Source: Diplonema papillatum (taxonomy: Eukaryota; Euglenozoa; Diplonemea; Diplonemida; Diplonemidae). Taken from it: a stretch of DNA of 64,000 bases. The stretch is from the NCBI GenBank assembly GCA_030068145.1, contig JAPJBO010000164.1, positions 1 through 64,000 on the forward strand, read 5' to 3'. Shown one piece after another: positions 2,759 through 39,290 of this stretch (positions are counted from its first letter, which is position 1; every line of letters begins with the position of its first letter). The notes below the pieces were generated by a model. The model searched no databases. It was not told where the DNA came from and saw only the letters and a program-made list of their open reading frames with translations. A program made the translations under genes and the position numbers.

Positions 2759-3968
2759 GGGATTTCGTCGGTGGAGCGCTTGTAGGAGGCGAAAGCGTCG
2801 GCGGTGAAATGGTTGAAGGGGCACTAGTTGGTGGTGCAGGAGTAGAATCTAGAGGTGGCAGGGGGCAATAAGTGGGTTTTCCGGTTTCGCAGCAGTACGA
2901 AGGGTCTTTCAGGCCGGGAAGTGGATCGCACTTAGTTCTCGGATAGTTTGACTTGCACTGAGCGCAGCCCTGGTCCTGGCAGTGAAGGCAGTCGTAGATT
3001 GCATCGCACGAGACACACTCTGCCTTTTGGCTGTACTTGAAGTAGTTGTCCACACACTGATCGCACCCGTTCCCATGGCACGATTTGCATCGGGTCCTCG
3101 ACCACTCGTCACCACGCACGTTGGTCCAATCTGGGCTGACGAACGTTAAGATCGGATCACCTGATGAATCTACCTTTGACCCCCCATTGCAGGGAGCAAG
3201 AGTGCAGTACCCTGACGTGCACTTTACTTGGTTTGGTTCGCTGTTGCCGCACACGAAGCCGTAGGACGATCCAGGCTTCTGCAGCTTCTTGTAGTATACC
3301 TTGTCGACACACTGGCCGTGCCCATTGGTGTCGGGTGTGGGGTTCTCACACGCCTGGCAGTCCATGTCATCTGTGCAAGGCACCGGGTTGTACGTGTATT
3401 TACGGTCGTCGCAGCAGCTGTGGGTGCCCTTTTTGCTGCTGCACTCTTCGGCTCTTTCGTGTGGGCACAGGTCTTCGTCGTTATCGGAAGAGCAGCAGAC
3501 GACTCCAGCTTTCTTGCTGTCTTTTTTGCAGTCGGCCTGCAGTCCGTTCTTCCTAGATCCGACCAGGGATCCGCCTTGTACGACGTGCCCTCCGTTACAC
3601 GAAGTGAGAGTCCACATCAAATTATCTTCAACATCGCAACCGATGCCGACAGCCACGTTGTATCGTAACTCTGTCATGGTGCATAGTCGAGCTCCCTTCT
3701 TGGAGCACATCTGCGCAGCCTTGCTGTACGTGACCCCTTTGGAACCCGTCGCACATGAGTTCCTTGAGCCGACCCGGGCGCATGCACATATGTGTGTGTA
3801 ATCGTAGTGGTAATTTGTGTATTCAAAGCAGTCGTTTTTGAGAGCGGAGCACTTTTTCACGGGGCATGCCCCGGGGGGTGCCTTCGGAGGTGAACCGCCT
3901 GAACCGCCTCCCGCGCTCAATCCGAAGAAGGAGGCGGCGACGAAGACCGCCAAGCCCCGCACGATCAT
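1..3968 (-). CDS. Secreted cysteine-rich protein with giant Pro-Thr-Asn-Ala stalk (3' end beyond window)
   Basis: Read on the minus strand from ATG 3968. Residues 1-19 are a textbook signal peptide (MIVRG, then LAVFVAASFFGLSA). A Gly/Ser/Pro linker follows, then about 350 residues rich in Cys. The first part of these holds a block of the form GARLCTMTEL...GxGC...LMW...SC, a pattern I associate with secreted proteins of algae and other protists. Further on (about 2890-3080) are CxxC-type repeats like those of furin-like or variable surface proteins. From about 2830 the frame reads a Pro/Thr/Ser linker and then PPTNA repeats to the edge of the window, a likely O-glycosylated wall or surface stalk. 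The frame is open from 3968 to about 1191, where one repeat unit is 29 bp instead of 30 and the frame slips. Function unknown; a surface or matrix protein is an inference. The tail is either frameshifted or the slip is a sequence error. Confidence 0.75.
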   Translation of the reverse strand, partial: MIVRGLAVFVAASFFGLSAGGGSGGSPPKAPPGACPVKKCSALKNDCFEYTNYHYDYTHICACARVGSRNSCATGSKGVTYSKAAQMCSKKGARLCTMTELRYNVAVGIGCDVEDNLMWTLTSCNGGHVVQGGSLVGSRKNGLQADCKKDSKKAGVVCCSSDNDEDLCPHERAEECSSKKGTHSCCDDRKYTYNPVPCTDDMDCQACENPTPDTNGHGQCVDKVYYKKLQKPGSSYGFVCGNSEPNQVKCTSGYCTLAPCNGGSKVDSSGDPILTFVSPDWTNVRGDEWSRTRCKSCHGNGCDQCVDNYFKYSQKAECVSCDAIYDCLHCQDQGCAQCKSNYPRTKCDPLPGLKDPSYCCETGKPTYCPLPPLDSTPAPPTSAPSTISPPTLSPPTSAPPTKSPPTNAPPTNAPPTNAPPTNAPPTNAPPTNAPPTNAPPTNAPPTNAPPTNAPPTNAPPTNAPPTNAPPTNAPPTNAPPTNAPPTNAPPTNAPPTNAPPTNAPPTNAPPTNAPPTNAPPTNAPPTNAPPTNAPPTNAPPTNAPPTNAPPTNAPPTNAPPTNAPPTNAPPTNAPPTNAPPTNAPPTNAPPTNAPPTNAPPTNAPPTNAPPTNAPPTNAPPTNAPPTNAPPTNAPPTNAPPTNAPPTNAPPTNAPPTNAPPTNAPPTNAPPTNAPPTNAPPTNAPPTNAPPTNAPPTNAPPTNAPPTNAPPTNAPPTNAPPTNAPPTNAPPTNAPPTNAPPTNAPPTNAPPTNAPPTNAPPTNAPPTNAPPTNAPPTNAPPTNAPPTNAPPTNAPPTNAPPTNAPPTNAPPTNAPPTNAPPTNAPPTNAPPTNAPPTNAPPTNAPPTNAPPTNAPPTNAPPTNAPPTNAPPTNAPPTNAPPTNAPPTNAPPTNAPPTNAPPTNAPPTNAPPTNAPPTNAPPTNAPPTTLRRRMRHLQMLRRRMRHLQTLRRRMRHLQTLRRRMRHLQTLRRRMRHLQTLRRRMRHLQTLRRRMRHLQTLRRRMRHLQTLRRRMRHLQTLRRRMRHLQTLRRRMRHLQTLRRRMRHLQTLRRRMRHLQTLRRRMRHLQTLRRRMRHLQTLRRRMRHLQTLRRRMRHLQTLRRRMRHLQTLRRRMRHLQTLRRRMRHLQTLRRRMRHLQTLRRRMRHLQTLRRRMRHLQTLRRRMRHLQTLRRRMRHPQMLRRRMRHLLTLRRRMRHPQTLRRRMRHLQTLRRRMRHPQTLRRRMRHPLTLRRRMRHPQTLRRRMRHPQTLRRRMRHPRTLRRRMRHLQTLRRRMRHLQTLRRRMRHLRTLRRRMRHPQTLRRRMRHLRTLRRRMRHLQTLRQLM

Positions 3969-4081
3969 CGGGTTTGCTCGGTCGTAGACGTTTGCTGTTG
4001 TTGTTGGGGGGGGGAAGGATCGCGGGGGGGTCTTTCTTTCTGAGGTGCGGTGTATACCTATGCCGGCAGTCGTTTGGTTCG

Positions 4082-4180
4082 GATATAGGTGCCGCGTATG
4101 TGAAGAGATGCCCGGGTATACCGGGTATCATACCGGGAAACACATATGCACCGTACCACAGGTATCGGATACCCGTGGGA
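4082..4180. repeat. Degenerate GGTATACCGG palindromic repeat cluster
   Basis: Several copies of CCGGGTATACCGG and GGTATCGGATACCCGTGG. The same family recurs at 5672-5762 and 6150-6300. It lies about 110 bp upstream of the start of the cysteine-rich protein gene. Confidence 0.6.
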
Positions 4181-4441
4181 ATTGTCACGAACTCTCCTAG
4201 TCCTTTGCTTGGTTGGTCAGATTTCACCAAATGCTGAGGCACAAGACGCATGACAACAAAGGGAAAGTGTGAAGCCAATTCAACCTAACAACTAACGAAT
4301 TTGCGAACGGGATGAACGGGAGGAAGGAATGGTTTGGGCGTCTCAACGCCCACCAAGACGATCACCGGGGCAAGGGAGGGTGGGAAAATTGTTTTATCCT
4401 TTTATAACTAACTGCGGCCTGCTGATGATTTGTTATCAAGC

Positions 4442-4482
4442 AACTTTCAGTTCTAAAGAACTGAAAGTTTTCTTTTTTTTTG
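4442..4482 (+). other. Perfect 13-bp inverted repeat followed by a T run
   Basis: Arms AACTTTCAGTTCT (4442-4454) and AGAACTGAAAGTT (4457-4469) with a 2-nt loop, followed on the plus strand by an interrupted T tract to about 4481. It resembles a factor-independent terminator for plus-strand transcription, but in a eukaryote its role is unknown. It lies about 70 bp beyond the 3' end of the SL RNA gene. Confidence 0.5.
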
Positions 4483-4550
4483 GGACCCCTACCACTTGAA
4501 GAAGGACATCCTGAAGCAACATGTTGGGGCACATTTGCAACTATTTGAAT

Positions 4551-4672
4551 AAAAGAAAGGCCAGGCTCCTTCAAGAGGGACCTGGCCAAGCGGAAATACT
4601 AGCCATGAAGGCTGGTTGGATGTGTTAAAGTACCAATAAAGTACAGAAACTGTAGCTTTTAAATCGTTGGTT
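4551..4672 (-). ncRNA. SL RNA: Spliced leader (SL) RNA gene
   Basis: The minus strand from 4672 reads a 39-nt exon beginning AACCAACGATTTAAAAGC and ending ACAGTTTCTGTACTTTATTG at 4634. The kinetoplastid exon carries an almost identical 3' half, and the diplonemid SL as I remember it has the same AT-rich 5' part. The exon is followed at once by a 5' splice site (GTACTTTAAC). The intron part folds into a small hairpin (AGCC/GGCT) and a strong one with arms GGCCAGG and CCTGGCC (4587-4559). It ends in TTTCTTTT (4558-4551), a likely terminator. Predicted RNA about 115-120 nt. It would donate the capped leader to mRNAs by trans-splicing. No perfect Sm site was picked out; a U-containing stretch lies between the two hairpins. 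The U2 and 5S genes lie just upstream in the same orientation. Confidence 0.93.
4634..4672 (-). other. SL exon (39 nt) with GT donor at 4633-4632
   Basis: The 39-nt length and AA at the 5' end match the start of the hypermethylated cap-4 leader of kinetoplastids. The exon boundary is fixed by TATTG followed by GTAC. Confidence 0.88.
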
Positions 4673-4767
4673 AACCAAAATTTAAAGCAAAAGAAAGGGG
4701 GGGGGTCGGGCAGTGTCAGCGCTGCGAAAAAGTGACGACTTATCGGTCGAAGAAGGGCTGGGTTTGC

Positions 4768-4855
4768 GGAGAAGGAGAAGGAGAAGGAGAAGGAGAAGGA
4801 GAAGGAGAAGGAGAAGGAGAAGGAGAAGGAGAAGGAGAAGGAGAAGGAGGGAGGA
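4768..4855. repeat. GAGAAG hexanucleotide microsatellite
   Basis: About 13-14 units of GAGAAG lie just downstream of the U2 gene. The Arg-rich, Gly-Glu and Leu/Pro-Ser frames read from it in both orientations are artefacts of the repeat. Confidence 0.9.
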
Positions 4856-4877
4856 GGAAAGGGATGGTAAAAAAGAT

Positions 4878-5068
4878 GGGTGTGCCACTCCTGGATGTAG
4901 TGCAGCTCCAGGGCAACACGTGTGGCGGACTCTGAGTTGCCTCAGAGCTACCCGCCACCCCCGTGAAAAATTCACATAATATCTCAGCACACAAGTGTGC
5001 TGTATCAGATATTAAGCTGATAAGAACAGATACTACACTTGATCTTAGCCAAAAGGCCGAGAAGGTAT
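4878..5068 (-). ncRNA. U2: U2 spliceosomal snRNA
   Basis: The minus strand from 5068 begins ATACCTTCTCGGCC and runs through TTTTGGCTAAGATCAAGTG, the near-universal U2 5' domain. The branch-site recognition element GTAGTATCTG follows, then the stem IIa/IIc region (TTAATATCTGATACAGC). Next come a U-rich candidate Sm site (GAATTTTTCAC) and two 3' stem-loops. The last has arms CCTGG and CCAGG and ends GGCACACCC at 4878, like the human 3' end. Length 191 nt, in the normal range. A T6 run follows at 4874-4869. It serves both cis- and trans-splicing. The 5S gene lies 245 bp upstream and the SL gene about 205 bp downstream, same strand. Confidence 0.97.
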
Positions 5069-5313
5069 GCCCAGAATCAGGAGAAAGCAAAAGCAGGTTG
5101 TGGATGATCAAGCGCGGATGATGCATGCTGAAGACACGAAACAAGAAAAAGGGTGGGCCAGGGGGCATTGACCTGAACAGATCTTGATGCCGCAAACCCG
5201 CAAATCCAACCAAGGTCGAGTCGAGGGGGGGAAGCAAGGAAAGAAGGGTGTTTGATCAAATTGATGTTTGATGTTCCCTTTGGGGGGGTGCACAATTGGG
5301 GCGAGGGAAAAGA

Positions 5314-5431
5314 GAATACAACACCTGGGGTTCCCACGTGATCACTCACCGCAGTACTAGTCAGGCCTGCTGGTGCTTAACTTCCCAAATCAGGCGGGAT
5401 GGGGTGCTTTCACCAGAGTATGGTCGTATCC
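5314..5431 (-). rRNA. 5S rRNA: 5S ribosomal RNA
   Basis: The minus strand reads GGATACGACCATACTCTGG at the 5' end, GGGAAGTTAAGCACC in the box A region, AGTACTGCGGTGAGTGATC in the box C region, and GGTGTTGTATTC at the 3' end. The two ends pair as stem I (GGATAC with GTATTC). Length 118 nt. TCTTTTCC follows directly and would serve as a Pol III terminator. The linkage of 5S with SL RNA and U2 is a euglenozoan trait. Confidence 0.97.
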
Positions 5432-5440
5432 AATTGGAGG

Positions 5441-5540
5441 AAAAATGAAAACGCACCGTGCACAGGCTCTGTGCAACGTGGAGTGCGGACCTTGAAATGC
5501 AGTACAGAAACGTTTTTCGAGCATCCGGTGATTTTATTAT
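5441..5540 (-). ncRNA. Candidate small RNA upstream of 5S (unidentified)
   Basis: On the minus strand, 5487-5452 forms a stable hairpin (outer arms CGCAC/GTGCG, inner arms TGCACAG/CTGTGCA). It is followed by TTTTCATTTTT, like a Pol III end. Just 5' of it, at 5511-5501, lies GTTTCTGTACT, an 11-nt match to the SL exon. It sits 10 bp upstream of 5S in the same orientation. I found no U1, U4, U5 or U6 hallmarks. It could be another snRNA, an SL-like relic or chance. Confidence 0.3.
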
Positions 5541-5671
5541 CGTGGTGAACTCTACATACTTGGGGGCGTGATTGAGCTCCTCAGGCTCGAATCACTGAGC
5601 TGCACATTGTAAGCGGTTCGTCCGTTCGAGTCTTCGGCTTGGGACTGCTCGTCTGCGATGGGAAAGATCGG

Positions 5672-5762
5672 GGCATAAACCGGGTATCGGATACCCGTGG
5701 TACGGGGCATGTACCGGGTATACCCGGTACCCGTGGTACGGGGCATGTACCGGGTATTACGA
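5672..5762. repeat. GTACC palindromic repeat cluster
   Basis: Contains the perfect 20-bp palindrome GTACCGGGTATACCCGGTAC at 5711-5730, flanked by two copies of CCCGTGGTACGGGGCATGTA. The same arrangement occurs at 6150-6200. Confidence 0.8.
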
Positions 5763-6149
5763 TTCATCGTGGGAATGTTTCAGCGTAGCGCCCAAACAGC
5801 AGGTCATTGGGGTTTTAGCAACACAAAGTCTAAAATTCCCACCCACCCACATCCTGGTATTCGCTGTTTGCTATCCTATCAGTCCGCGGTATCCGCGAGG
5901 TCCAGGGGAGCTGGGTTCCCACCCTCCGTCCCCCGTGACTTCCTGGGCTAGCCTGTTCACTCACAAAATCAGTGGCTACCTCAGGGGGTTACCCCATCGT
6001 ACGTGAAACCCTGTTCCTTCTTCCCCTTTCTTTGTTGCAATGAGTGGATTTCAGAAGCATTCTGAGAAATGCAACGATCAAGTGAAGCGCACGCGAAGCG
6101 CAGTAGCGCAGTTCATGATGAACTCAGCAAGTGAAGCGCCAAGGCATTC

Positions 6150-6300
6150 TACCCGGTACCCGTGGTACGGGGCATGTACCGGGTATACCCGGTACCCGTG
6201 GTAGCATATACCGGGTCTAACGGCGGGTATGATTAGATGACAAATACCCGATATACCGCGGTACTTTTCCCGGTATAACGGGGATCATACCGGGATAGTA
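6150..6300. repeat. GTACC palindromic repeat cluster, second large copy
   Basis: The same 20-bp palindrome lies at 6176-6195 in the same flanking context as 5672-5762, followed by degenerate copies to about 6300. No gene is seen between 5540 and 7300. Confidence 0.8.
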
Positions 6301-6634
6301 GTAATTGGTATCATGCCAGGTACCACCCAAAAATCCCTCAATGGGGGCATTTCTCTGGCCGCCGGCGTGCTACTCTCGAGGTATCTGCAGGACACATTCT
6401 ATTGGGCAGGAATGGTGGTGGTGGCTAGACATGGTATTGGCCGAACGTCTCCCTGCTGAGGGATTGGCCAAGGAGGCAAAGCCTCCAGGATGCTTTCCAA
6501 CCGAAAATCCCATAGTTTGTCGAGGTTTTAATACAGAATATCTGTGGCGAAAACGAACACGCAAAATCGTGCCCCAAAGACTGTTGTCGATACGGATGAT
6601 TCTGCTCCCCTGCATGTGGACCAATAAATCAAAA

Positions 6635-7000
6635 TCCACATGTGGTACCTGTGGATCCACACGTGGGGGAACAAAATCCAAAAAAAGAATAAACGTGTGG
6701 AAATCCACACGTTCCACGGGGGAACAAAAATCCAAAAAAAGAATTAACGTGTGGAAATCCACACGTTCCACACGTGGAGCGTAAGCCCTGCCACAGAACC
6801 CGACCAGCCACGACCTGCTCATATTCCTGATAAACTGCAGTCTAGGCCCACTAGTGGTCAAGGCCGCACAGCCAGGTGTCGGCAAGTCCAGTAGCGACGC
6901 TATTTTTGTTTGCCGTCGCACATAAGGGGAAAGGTTTTTTCCCCCTCGAACGTTAAGCGCCCACACGTGGACCACACGTATTTCTCTGAGACCGAAAACG
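6635..7000. repeat. CACGTG-rich short repeats
   Basis: Direct repeats of AAATCCACACGTTCCAC and AAAAATCCAAAAAAAGAAT with CCACACGTGG palindromes (6640-6780), and a further ACACGTGGACCACACG at about 6962. No coding sequence is supported here. Confidence 0.6.
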
Positions 7001-19065: not shown

Positions 19066-22000
19066 ATTAAATTCTTCCTTCGGTGCGGTTGCCTTCTGAG
19101 CCGTCGTCGCCGCTCCGACGTCCGAATTTAACTCTTGTTTAATAGCCTCTACCAAGCATACCTCGGCTACATTTCACAACTGTGCCTCGGTTGTGTTCCT
19201 TAACTGGATTGCTGGCGCGATGGGATGAGCTGCCCGGCGAAAATATGGCCGCCATGGCGGCTGCAGTTGCGGGCCTAGCCGGCGCGACCGCAAGCAGACG
19301 GCTGCGTGCGCAACCACCGTTGCCAGCTCGACCGGCGTGTGAGCACGGGCTTGCGCTGCCGTGGGCCCGATCGCGCTCTCCACGCGGTACCATGGGATTG
19401 TCCCAATGGCTTCTATCCCAATGGTCCCTAGCCAGCAGACCGAGTAGGGAGGAACAGCAGACTGGAATGCATCTCCCTCTTTCCTACGCAGAGGCCACAC
19501 GCGGAAACGCTGCCGACAAGTCGTTTCTTCCCGACCAGGTGAGCCACTTTCTTCTCAGCCACACCTTGTTCGAGGACGCGCTCCCACGGTTTACAGAAGC
19601 CAACTTCTGACCACCTGAGCTCCAAATGCGAGAGCAAGATGCCACCAATTGCAGAGCGTTCTGGCACTTGCTAAGGGACTACAGGCATCAACGGTCCTGG
19701 GATGCAGCCCGTGAGCTGCAGTGCCTTGCTGGCACCCTAGAGCGTCAGCCTCTATAAACCAGGAGTCGGTGTCGACGAAAAAACTGTGGCTGACCATCTT
19801 CCTCCCACACACAGCCAACATGGCTCGTCGAGGAAATACGAGACACTCACATAGCGCCCACGTAGCGTTTATTGTGTTGAGCATCCGCATTCAAATGTGT
19901 TCATGAGAGTCAGCGACGACAAGAAAACTGGCCGCGGCATACGAAACTTCATCTCGTGCTCAGACGCACCATGCAACTACTTCGCAGCGTCATTTCCATC
20001 GTTTACCCAGCGCGAGCGAGGCCAGAAGGGACATTCCTAAATGCGGAAGGACTTCGGAAAAATCGTTGTGCTTGCAGAGCGTGTGACAGGAGCCACAAGC
20101 TGCCTCGTCCTCGACTCCGCTCGAATCAAGCTCCCAAGCACCTAAGTACATGGATCGGTAGACTGACCCCTGCCGAAATGCATGTTGACATCCACAGGAC
20201 GATCGCCTTCTAGTTGCTTACAGAAAGCGCCCTAACTATTTGGGCAAGCATCCTACCTGACAGCGCAGCCACGTGGAGCGCCTTCCCAGCACCGACCTTT
20301 GGAGGGACTGCCGGGCCGCCTCGACCGGGGTCCTTGCACAATACACGACCGCACAGTACAACGAGTCATCCATCTGCGCCATCTCTGTTGCCACGGCCTC
20401 GCCTCCGGGGCATACTCCTTATCAACTTGCAGCTATCACGTCATGAACATCTGCAGGGGAGGAACGCACACACAAGCCGGCCCACCCTCCGAACGTCATT
20501 ACGCACCCGATGCCACGCAGCGCAGACACCTCTTTCACTTCGTAACTGCCGCCGCCGTGATGCTCGCCCACTTTTGACTGCCGAGACTCGGTCCGAGTCC
20601 TCAAGGAGTACGGGCTCGGGGTCCTTTTGCTATCGGACAGCGACACCAGCCCTGCCTTTCCAAACAAAAAGAAGAAGCTGCGCAATTTCAGACGCTTCCC
20701 CAGTTCTTACTACACCTGTGAAACAGTAGGAGGCCCACTATAGTCGCGGAAGACAGTCTCTGGGCGCACGGCCCTCTTCCGGAGTAATCTCCGGGACAGG
20801 GCACAGCCCTCTTCCGGGAGGAGTCACGGCGACAGCCTCTGGGCAGGGCGCGAGACCCTCTTGGGAAGTCGCCGGTCGCCGGGTCCGGATCCGCGACTTC
20901 AACGTCGTCCATTGCCGTCTCGAATATGCGGAGCTCTTCTTCAAGCCGTGAAACGATCCTCCTTTTGCCGACCTGCATTTACTTCACGCGCCGATTCGCA
21001 TCGAGTAGGGCCGCATCATCTCTGTCGACTCTTCCGCGTCCACCTGAGATCGACGGTGCTCTGCAGCTCTTCCTGGTCGCCTTGTAACTGAGATCGGCAT
21101 CCAGCCTACCAACCTGTCTTTCAAGCGGGCTTCCACTCTGCGCTGCGTTGTTCTTCAAGTCGATGATCAATTGCGCAGAGGTTGATTCTGCTTCTTGGCT
21201 GTCAGCTTTGCGACGTCGACAGGGCGCACGGCCCTCTTCCGGAGGAGTCACGGAGACAACCTCTGGGAAGGGCGCAAGGCCCTCTTCCGGAGAAGCCACA
21301 TGGACAGTCTCTGGGAAGGGCGCACGGCCCTCTTCCGGAGAAGCCACATGGGCAGTCTCTGGGACAGGGCGCACGGCCCTCTTCCGGAGGAGTCACGGAG
21401 ACAGCCTCTGGGAAGGGCGCAAGGCCCTCTTCCGGAGAAGCCACATGGACAGTCTCTGGGAAGGGCGCACGGCCCTCTTCCGGAGAAGCCACATGGACAG
21501 TCTCTGGGAAGGGCGCACGGCCCTCTTCCGGAGAAGCCACATGGGCAGTCTCTGGGACAGGGCGCACGGCCCTCTTCCGGAGGAGTCACGGAGACAGCCT
21601 CTGGGAAGGGCGCAAGGCCCTCTTCCGGAGAAGCCACATGGACAGTCTCTGGGAAGGGCGCACGGCCCTCTTCCGGAGAAGCCACATGGGCAGTCTCTGG
21701 GACAGGGCGCACGGCCCTCTTCCGGAGGAGTCACGGAGACAGCCTCTGGGAAGGGCGCAAGGCCCTCTTCCGGAGAAGCCACATGGACAGTCTCTGGGAC
21801 AGGGCGCACGGCCCTCTTCCGGAGGAGTCACGGAGACAGCCTCTGGGAAGGGCGCAAGGCCCTCTTCCGGAGAAGCCACATGGACAGTCTCTGGGACAGG
21901 GCGCACGGCCCTCTTCCGGAGGAGTCACGGAGACAGCCTCTGGGAAGGGCGCAAGGCCCTCTTCCGGAGAAGCCACATGGACAGTCTCTGGGAAGGGCGC

Positions 22001-24057
22001 ACGGCCCTCTTCCGGAGAAGCCACATGGGCAGTCTCTGGGACAGGGCGCACGGCCCTCTTCCGGAGGAGTCACGGAGACAACCTCTGGGAAGGGCGCAAG
22101 GCCCTCTTCCGGAGAAGCCACATGGACAGTCTCTGGGAAGGGCGCACGGCCCTCTTCCGGAGGAGTCACGGAGACAGCCTCTGGGAAGGGCGCAAGGCCC
22201 TCTTCCGGAGAAGCCACATGGACAGTCTCTGGGAAGGGCGCACGGCCCTCTTCCGGAGAAGCCACATGGGCAGTCTCTGGGACAGGGCGCACGGCCCTCT
22301 TCCGGAGGAGTCACGGAGACAGCCTCTGGGAAGGGCGCAAGGCCCTCTTCCGGAGAAGCCACATGGACAGTCTCTGGGAAGGGCGCACGGCCCTCTTCCG
22401 GAGGAGTCACGGAGACAGCCTCTGGGAAGGGCGCAAGGCCCTCTTCCGGAGAAGCCACATGGACAGTCTCTGGGAAGGGCGCACGGCCCTCTTCCGGAGG
22501 AGTCACGGAGACAGTCTCTGGGAAGGGCGCAAGGCCCTCTTCCGGAGAAGCCACATGGACAGTCTCTGGGAAGGGCGCACGGCCCTCTTCCGGAGAAGCC
22601 ACATGGGCAGTCTCTGGGACAGGGCGCACGGCCCTCTTCCGGAGGAGTCACGGAGACAGCCTCTGGGAAGGGCGCAAGGCCCTCTTCCGGAGAAGCCACA
22701 TGGACAGTCTCTGGGAAGGGCGCACGGCCCTCTTCCGGAGGAGTCACGGAGACAGCCTCTGGGAAGGGCGCAAGGCCCTCTTCCGGAGAAGCCACATGGA
22801 CAGTCTCTGGGAAGGGCGCACGGCCCTCTTCCGGAGAAGCCTCTGGGAAGGGCGCACGGCCCTCTTCCGGAGCAGTCTCTGGGACAGGGCGCACGGCGCA
22901 CGGCCCTCTTCCGGAGGAGTCACGGAGACAGCCTCTGGGAAGGGCGCAAGGCCCTCTTCCGGAGAAGCCACATGGACAGTCTCTGGGAAGGGCGCACGGC
23001 CCTCTTCCGGAGGAGTCACGGAGACAACCTCTGGGAAGGGCGCAAGGCCCTCTTCCGGAGAAGCCACATGGACAGTCTCTGGGAAGGGCGCACGGCCCTC
23101 TTCCGGAGGAGTCACGGAGACAACCTCTGGGAAGGGCGCAAGGCCCTCTTCCGGAGAAGCCACATGGACAGTCTCTGGGAAGGGCGCACGGCCCTCTTCC
23201 GGAGGAGTCACGGAGACAGCCTCTGGGAAGGGCGCAAGGCCCTCTTCCGGAGAAGCCACATGGACAGTCTCTGGGAAGGGCGCACGGCCCTCTTCCGGAG
23301 GAGTCACGGAGACAGCCTCTGGGAAGGGCGCAAGGCCCTCTTCCGGAGAAGCCACATGGACAGTCTCTGGGAAGGGCGCACGGCCCTCTTCCGGAGAAGT
23401 CACGGGACAGCCTCTGGGAGGGCGCACGGCCCTCTTCCGGACACTCTCTGGGAAGGGCGCACGGCCCTCTTCCGGAGAAGCCACATGGGCAGTCTCTGGG
23501 ACAGGGCGCACGGCCCTCTTCCGGAGGAGTCACGGAGACAGCCTCTGGGAAGGGCGCAAGGCCCTCTTCCGGAGAAGCCACATGGACAGTCTCTGGGACA
23601 GGGCGCACGGCCCTCTCACTGATTTTCCGAGGGAACCTGCGAGGCTTGACGAATCTACATACAGGGGGTCGGTTCGGATTTCTTCATTCCTTTCCTCTCA
23701 TTGAACGAAACCCGCTACTGCAATGCACGGCAGCAATGCCGGACCGCATTGTCCAACTGCAATGCAGACCTTGAAGAGCTCATGGCCCTCTTCAGGAGAA
23801 GTCGCTGAGGACGTTCTCTGGGACAGCAAGAACTTCGTTGCAAAACAGCATAGTCCTCCCTCGAGAACGTGTCGCCGGACGCCGACACCATACTGCCGCC
23901 ACCTGCAACCAAGGACTTGCCGCGCCCGTACTCGCTTTTCGGTTCAAGTCAGTTTCGGGAAGCGACAGTCACGAGATACCAAACAAAATCGGAGGAAGGT
24001 GCTTGGTAGATCTCGCTCCTGCCGGCGCTTGCGCGAAATTAGCTGAATTAAACGCCC
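19066..24057. mobile_element. Tandem mobile element, unit 2 (5.0 kb)
   Basis: Same head (19066-19404) and tail (23990-24057, AAAATCGGAGGAAGGTGC to AATTAAACGCCC) as unit 1. The interior carries a 48-bp satellite. The flanks GATATAG (to 17317) and AGTATACAAGC (from 24058) join exactly into the uninterrupted sequence seen at 16090-16110 and 16700-16720. The pair therefore inserted there without an evident target-site duplication. Confidence 0.75.
21222..23615. repeat. 48/49-bp satellite, about 49 units
   Basis: Unit: GGGCGCACGGCCCTCTTCCG, GAGAAGCCACATGGACAGTC, TCTGGGAA. Variants alternate (GGAGTCACGGAGACAGCC; CGCAAGG for CGCACGG). Units with GGGACAGG instead of GGGAAGG are 49 bp, so no single frame persists. 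Diverged units occur outside the array at 20750-20870 and 23776-23825, probably the ancestral sequence. Confidence 0.95.
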
Positions 24058-38061: not shown

Positions 38062-39226
38062 GAACCTTTCAGATCTTGCATTGCAAGACCCCTATTTTTA
38101 GGTCGAACCTTTCAGATCTTGCATTGCAAGACCCCTATTTTTAGGTCGAACCTTTCAGATCTTGCATTGCAAGACCCCTATTTTTAGGTCGAACCTTTCA
38201 GATCTTGCATTGCAAGACCCCTATTTTTAGGTCGAACCTTTCAGATCTTGCATTGCAAGACCCCTATTTTTAGGTCGAACCTTTCAGATCTTGCATTGCA
38301 AGACCCCTATTTTTAGGTCGAACCTTTCAGATCTTGCATTGCAAGACCCCTATTTTTAGGTCGAACCTTTCAGATCTTGCATTGCAAGACCCCTATTTTT
38401 AGGTCGAACCTTTCAGATCTTGCATTGCAAGACCCCTATTTTTAGGTCGAACCTTTCAGATCTTGCATTGCAAGACCCCTATTTTTAGGTCGAACCTTTC
38501 AGATCTTGCATTGCAAGACCCCTATTTTTAGGTCGAACCTTTCAGATCTTGCATTGCAAGACCCCTATTTTTAGGTCGAACCTTTCAGATCTTGCATTGC
38601 AAGACCCCTATTTTTAGGTCGAACCTTTCAGATCTTGCATTGCAAGACCCCTATTTTTAGGTCGAACCTTTCAGATCTTGCATTGCAAGACCCCTATTTT
38701 TAGGTCGAACCTTTCAGATCTTGCATTGCAAGACCCCTATTTTTAGGTCGAACCTTTCAGATCTTGCATTGCAAGACCCCTATTTTTAGGTCGAACCTTT
38801 CAGATCTTGCATTGCAAGACCCCTATTTTTAGGTCGAACCTTTCAGATCTTGCATTGCAAGACCCCTATTTTTAGGTCGAACCTTTCAGATCTTGCATTG
38901 CAAGACCCCTATTTTTAGGTCGAACCTTTCAGATCTTGCATTGCAAGACCCCTATTTTTAGGTCGAACCTTTCAGATCTTGCATTGCAAGACCCCTATTT
39001 TTAGGTCGAACCTTTCAGATCTTGCATTGCAAGACCCCTATTTTTAGGTCGAACCTTTCAGATCTTGCATTGCAAGACCCCTATTTTTAGGTCGAACCTT
39101 TCAGATCTTGCATTGCAAGACCCCTATTTTTAGGTCGAACCTTTCAGATCTTGCATTGCAAGACCCCTATTTTTAGGTCGAACCTTTCAGATCTTGCAGT
39201 GCAAGACCCCTATTTTTATGTCGAAC
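38062..39226. repeat. 43-bp satellite, about 27 near-identical units
   Basis: Unit: GAACCTTTCAGATCTTGCAT, TGCAAGACCCCTATTTTTAG, GTC. It contains the odd palindrome TCTTGCATTGCAAGA. Only the last unit differs (GCAGTGC, TATGTC). It has no long open frame, unlike the other arrays, and separates the two C13 genes. Confidence 0.97.
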
Positions 39227-39290
39227 CCCCTTCTAAAAGCCCGATATGAAGGAGAAGGAGACTGCCCGCTCCAGAACAGGGCCGCAGCCA

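Follow-up and report, generated by a model that had tools for sequence, protein, structure and literature searches.

The SL RNA, U2 snRNA and 5S rRNA genes found together on the minus strand of a 64,000-nucleotide stretch of Diplonema papillatum DNA (contig C164; this stretch is referred to as the window) are probably one stray copy of the published SL-5S-U2 repeat of this organism, originating from a sub-type of the repeat that carries a piece of an inserted element. The cluster as such is already known from D. papillatum (PMC10161547), so that finding it here changes little. About 20 splicing-RNA cassettes appear to have been amplified along with the element piece, which is relevant to the homogenisation and scattering of such arrays.

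In order to identify the genes, the whole window was scanned with the Rfam covariance models at the gathering threshold. Exactly two families were matched, both on the minus strand: U2 (RF00004; 158.5 bits at a gathering threshold of 46, E-value 5.8e-33, model positions 1-192 of 192, window positions 5068-4875) and 5S (RF00001; 99.6 bits at a gathering threshold of 38, E-value 1.5e-20, model positions 1-120 of 120, window positions 5431-5313). The covariance-model check proposed in the preliminary description was thus positive for U2 and 5S, both full-length and above gathering, and negative for the SL segment. With E-values of up to 10 in the region 3500-7000, no family was obtained either for the SL segment or for the stretch upstream of 5S that had been described as a fourth structured unit. 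Since Rfam holds curated families only, we did not count the miss on SL as a refutation. The predicted SL RNA gene is identified by its 39-nt exon, letter-for-letter the published sequence 'Euglenozoa 14' (PMC3795323), and by its structure of 39 nt of exon and 75 nt of intron part, in agreement with the published SL gene of D. papillatum (PMC10161547). The exon is directly followed by a GT at 4633 (minus strand). The euglenozoan lineage read from the sequence beforehand was correct. The order along the minus strand is 5S, U2 and SL RNA (4672-4559), and the features of the region are as follows.

4443-4472, minus strand: left element end, 30 bp, GAAAACTTTCAGTTCTTTAGAACTGAAAGT, then broken off; its outer junction has one exact match in the genome
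4473-4489, minus strand: GGGGTCCC plus A-run, the join between element piece and SL unit
4548-4558, minus strand: T-rich stretch TTTCTTTTATT directly after SL
4559-4633, minus strand: 75-nt intron part of the putative SL RNA, belonging to class 1 (see below), with two hairpins
4634-4672, minus strand: SL exon, 39 nt
4673-4874, minus strand: U2-SL spacer with a GGAGAA microsatellite at 4768-4849
4875-5068, minus strand: U2 snRNA gene, complete, with T6 (4874-4869) directly downstream
5069-5312, minus strand: 5S-U2 spacer, 244 bp
5313-5431, minus strand: 5S rRNA gene, complete, with T4 at 5311-5308, starting one base past the Rfam end of 5S
5432-5532, minus strand: spacer of the repeat unit, located upstream of 5S (the 'fourth unit'), not supported as a gene
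5533-5672, minus strand: right end of the recombinase element, with CACGATAATAAA as its end, broken off at 5672; 99.3% match to the element of locus L006 (window 5537-5672 to element positions 1252-1387)

The total span of the three genes is 873 bp. Their identities, completeness and common strand, as well as their location within 900 bp with a T-run at each, therefore stand as first described. ARAGORN, run with the bacterial code, detected no tRNA in the window.

The occurrence of the cluster in the genome was determined by exact pattern matching in the assembly, whose 2910 contigs total 271,365,524 bases, the genome size of D. papillatum being reported as about 280 Mb (PMC10161547). The SL pattern covered 37 letters of the 39-nt exon and 7 of the intron. 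We obtained 192 matches for SL, 129 for U2, 144 for 5S and 86 for the core of the 'fourth unit'. The reversed patterns for SL, U2 and 5S, used as controls, gave 0 matches, which excludes chance for the gene patterns. The totals differ from the published copy numbers, to which other criteria were applied: 163 copies of U2, most of which alternate with 5S and SL, with up to 27 alternations in succession, and 110 copies of SL at 90% identity or more (PMC10161547). Further copies of the whole cluster form tandem arrays of alternating SL, 5S and U2 genes: the loci fetched from contigs C1335 and C2003 show the succession ...SL-5S-U2-SL..., and their units are spaced by 1199-1240 bp, apart from a single step of 1342 bp.

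In the genome paper, this tandem SL RNA-5S-U2 unit is described as exceptional and as seemingly absent from other diplonemids (PMC10161547). Thus, the preliminary description was correct in considering the linkage of SL with 5S as known in Euglenozoa (PMC7859406, PMC10161547) and incorrect in taking the presence of U2 in the unit for undescribed. In the SL-5S repeats of other Euglenozoa, including Euglena, the two genes are linked alike in one repeat, but no U2 is named in the unit where this linkage is described; a link between SL and 5S could not be established in the prokinetoplastid A. spiralis (PMC7859406). For Euglena gracilis, a contig with both U1 and U2 has been reported, and a tandem arrangement is stated for U1, U2 and U5 (PMC10679874). 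A scan of viral contigs with a 22-base SL piece, performed with regard to other diplonemids, gave 0 matches.

The SL RNA genes of D. papillatum fall into three classes, identical in the exon and distinct in the intron, represented by the window copy (4559-4672) and by the loci L035 (C1804), L036 (C372), L037 (C240) and L038 (C1879). Exact 30-mers across the exon-intron border matched the genome 98 times for class 1, to which the window copy belongs, 56 times for class 2 and 46 times for class 3; the sum of 200 compared to the 192 SL matches is due to the fewer exon letters required by the 30-mers. For the intron parts of all three classes, a small hairpin is predicted together with a long one at the 3' end, the z-scores of the folds being -2.78 (class 1), -3.41 and -3.74. 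In the consensus of the three sequences, based on a sequence alignment, 2 of 30 pairs were changed on both sides and the covariation term was unfavourable (+2.45), so that structural conservation of the SL RNA rests on the single folds. By eye, the would-be Sm-site stretch differs among the three classes. The main text of the genome paper describes one SL gene (PMC10161547). Sharing one exon and differing in the intron, the three classes would permit a direct test of SL intron requirements.

Class 3 is found, among others, in 684-bp steps on contigs C1729, C1879 and C1956, where the matches listed include no exact U2 on the contig and no exact 5S between the class-3 copies. Likewise, for 5S on contigs C27, C148, C211, C253 and C835, no exact SL or U2 on the same contig was among the matches listed. 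Since class-3 SL repeats and some 5S genes stand without their partners, the linkage of SL, 5S and U2 is not obligatory. Most likely, the three-gene linkage reflects homogenisation of the arrays rather than coupled regulation.

The preliminary description had also placed a fourth structured unit ahead of the three genes. The stretch in question (5432-5532) belongs to the repeat unit, as its 86 exact core matches indicate, ends in a T-run and has an 11-nt word in common with the SL exon, which 21 of 20000 letter shuffles reach. Its predicted fold, with a z-score of -0.78, is matched by 39 of 200 shuffles, and Rfam assigned no family to it. The main argument against a fourth gene is its loss in divergent units, because the main arrays keep the stretch 95-98% alike: it is reduced to its ends in L035 and L037, 69% identical in the first copy of L036 and in L038, and matched over 35 nt only in the second copy of L036, whereas the five 5S genes of the same four loci are 99.2-100% identical and their three U2 genes 100%. 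We therefore rejected a fourth RNA gene and read the stretch as spacer; a four-gene unit with an additional small RNA upstream of 5S is extremely improbable. The 11-nt word itself (GTTTCTGTACT) was by eye absent upstream of 5S at the four divergent loci.

A sub-type of the repeat was found on three contigs, with unit steps of 2495 bp on C728 and of 2483-2495 bp in the parts fetched from C2126 and C2331. These units contain about 1.4 kb with a 290-aa open reading frame (ORF) between SL and 5S and lack about 167 bp after SL. At least 159 matches to this ORF were detected in the genome, among which 20 are full-length and 100% identical (8 on C2126, 7 on C2331 and 5 on C728); the same contigs carry 19 class-1 SL matches (7, 7 and 5, respectively). 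The main text of the genome paper makes no mention of a 2495-bp element-bearing sub-type (PMC10161547). A tandem motif of 2.5 kb is reported there, with an ORF of 283 aa and about eight units per array in 13 arrays (PMC10161547), compared to the 290-aa ORF in 20 copies on three contigs found here.

The window copy resembles this sub-type. Positions 4443-5672 are 98.7% identical to a unit of C728 and share with it the deletion after SL and both element junctions. Compared to the published unit (PMC10161547), the window copy has the same three genes and the same SL RNA of 39 plus 75 nt, but it is single, lacks the stretch of about 167 bp and carries ends of the element piece. At its SL end it retains 30 bp of the element and at its 5S end about 136 bp; it then passes into dispersed repeats, for which 55 and 62 matches were obtained, the window included. 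Among the best candidates scored, both flanks occurred together on C164 only, and an empty insertion site was not found among the flank candidates scored. At least one other fragment is broken as well: on the side fetched, the copy on C66 ends in the 5S-U2 spacer. On C210, judged from positions only, U2, 5S and a piece of the ORF lie close together. In addition, we observed two SL exons, one per array type, that are interrupted after exon nucleotide 33 (L002:9540 to L003:1190 on C1335, and L029:1-1045 on C2126). Both insertions begin alike and contain short repeats as well as a GGTTCGATCC stretch resembling a tRNA.

As to the nature of the inserted element, the 290-aa ORF of the arrays gave no match in Pfam or NCBIfam and a weak match to Cre (best E-value 0.00086); a longer relative matched Cre with an E-value of 2.4e-5 in phmmer and no recombinase family in Pfam. 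In two fuller copies of the element, L015 and L023, gag-like, reverse transcriptase (RT)-like and recombinase-like ORFs follow each other in a row, with the gag-like label given by position only and the RT assignment based on RVT_1 matches below gathering (E-values 0.0021 for L023 and 0.028 for L015). Tyrosine recombinases are characterised by a catalytic Arg, an HxxR motif and a Tyr. The recombinase-like ORFs of L015 and L023 contain HSFRRG and a later Tyr, both of which the array ORF lacks. Dispersed copies carry the same element ends, GAAAACTTTC and CGATAATAAA; these are joined end to end in 6 of the 10 non-array loci displayed (L015, L016, L027, L028, L032 and L034) and not in the other four (L017-L020). 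The left element end follows an A-run of at least 4 in L017-L020 and likewise in the SL unit. Based on these sequence features, we assign the inserted element, albeit weakly, to the DIRS/TATE-like tyrosine-recombinase retroelements. A Crypton-like DNA element was considered for the 290-aa ORF and dropped, because RT-like and gag-like ORFs adjoin the recombinase-like one in L015 and L023. The ORF row of these two copies, the direct repeats and the tandem copies resemble VIPER/TATE and other tyrosine-recombinase retrotransposons (PMC6681497), whereas the piece in the SL arrays holds only a truncated recombinase-like ORF and the RT match of L015 and L023 stays below the cut-off. Recombinase elements also occur in tandem by themselves: positions 2135-7541 of L027 (C1438) consist of 1295-bp units of the element alone, with their ends joined.

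The order of events that we infer from these units is as follows. A short piece of a DIRS/TATE-like retroelement would have inserted in the A-run between SL and 5S of a single unit, and the unit enlarged to 2495 bp would then have been amplified in tandem, giving rise to the arrays on C728, C2126 and C2331. Subsequently, one unit would have been torn from its array, leaving the element ends ragged, and come to lie between the dispersed repeats of the window. Each of the intact genes could still be transcribed alone, U2 and SL from upstream elements and 5S from within; 5S rRNA genes use an internal polymerase III promoter. The transcripts would each end at the T-run and might serve the ribosomes, the spliceosome and trans-splicing.

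Two points on the element speak against a stray unit of the sub-type: the assignment of the recombinase is weak, with no Pfam or NCBIfam match, and the break on the SL side lies exactly at the palindrome end of the element, which could mean a recombinase-linked event and not random breakage. In a rival reading, the cassette would be cargo of the recombinase element: circles of SL, 5S, U2 and element would leave the 2495-bp arrays, and a recombinase encoded at another place in the genome would insert them again. We consider this unlikely. Element ends are still attached on both sides of the window copy, the genome contains longer recombinase-like ORFs in which HSFRRG is followed by a Tyr, and the end-to-end junctions of the element may be circle-like or tandem, but plain tandem repeats explain these junctions equally well. 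Moreover, both ends of the window copy lie within the element, the C66 copy terminates in the 5S-U2 spacer at the end that was fetched, the array ORF is devoid of the HSFRRG/Tyr part and the SL-side outer junction has a single exact-pattern match in the genome.

Another objection to a stray unit is misassembly, i.e. a chimaeric contig in which an array unit was fused to unrelated repeats. The copy is located 4.5 kb into the contig and next to a satellite of 2.8 kb, and the genome paper warns that repeats of this kind may be artificially duplicated or collapsed (PMC10161547). The sequence continues past both outer junctions and C66 is another broken fragment, neither of which is a strong argument, and we regard such an artefact as improbable. 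Very unlikely is the more far-reaching notion that a tyrosine-recombinase retroelement carries the SL RNA, U2 and 5S genes about together and thereby spreads a gene set for trans-splicing, cis-splicing and ribosomal RNA.

Besides the stray copy of the SL-5S-U2 repeat, the window contains several other repeats. The satellite at the contig start (positions 1-2804) has a 30-bp unit in 93.5 copies at 97%, and a 43-bp repeat is present at 38062-39227 in 27 copies at 99%. At 21221-23616, an array of a 48-bp repeat comes with three long, overlapping ORFs (688, 819 and 824 aa), each in a different frame of the same strand.
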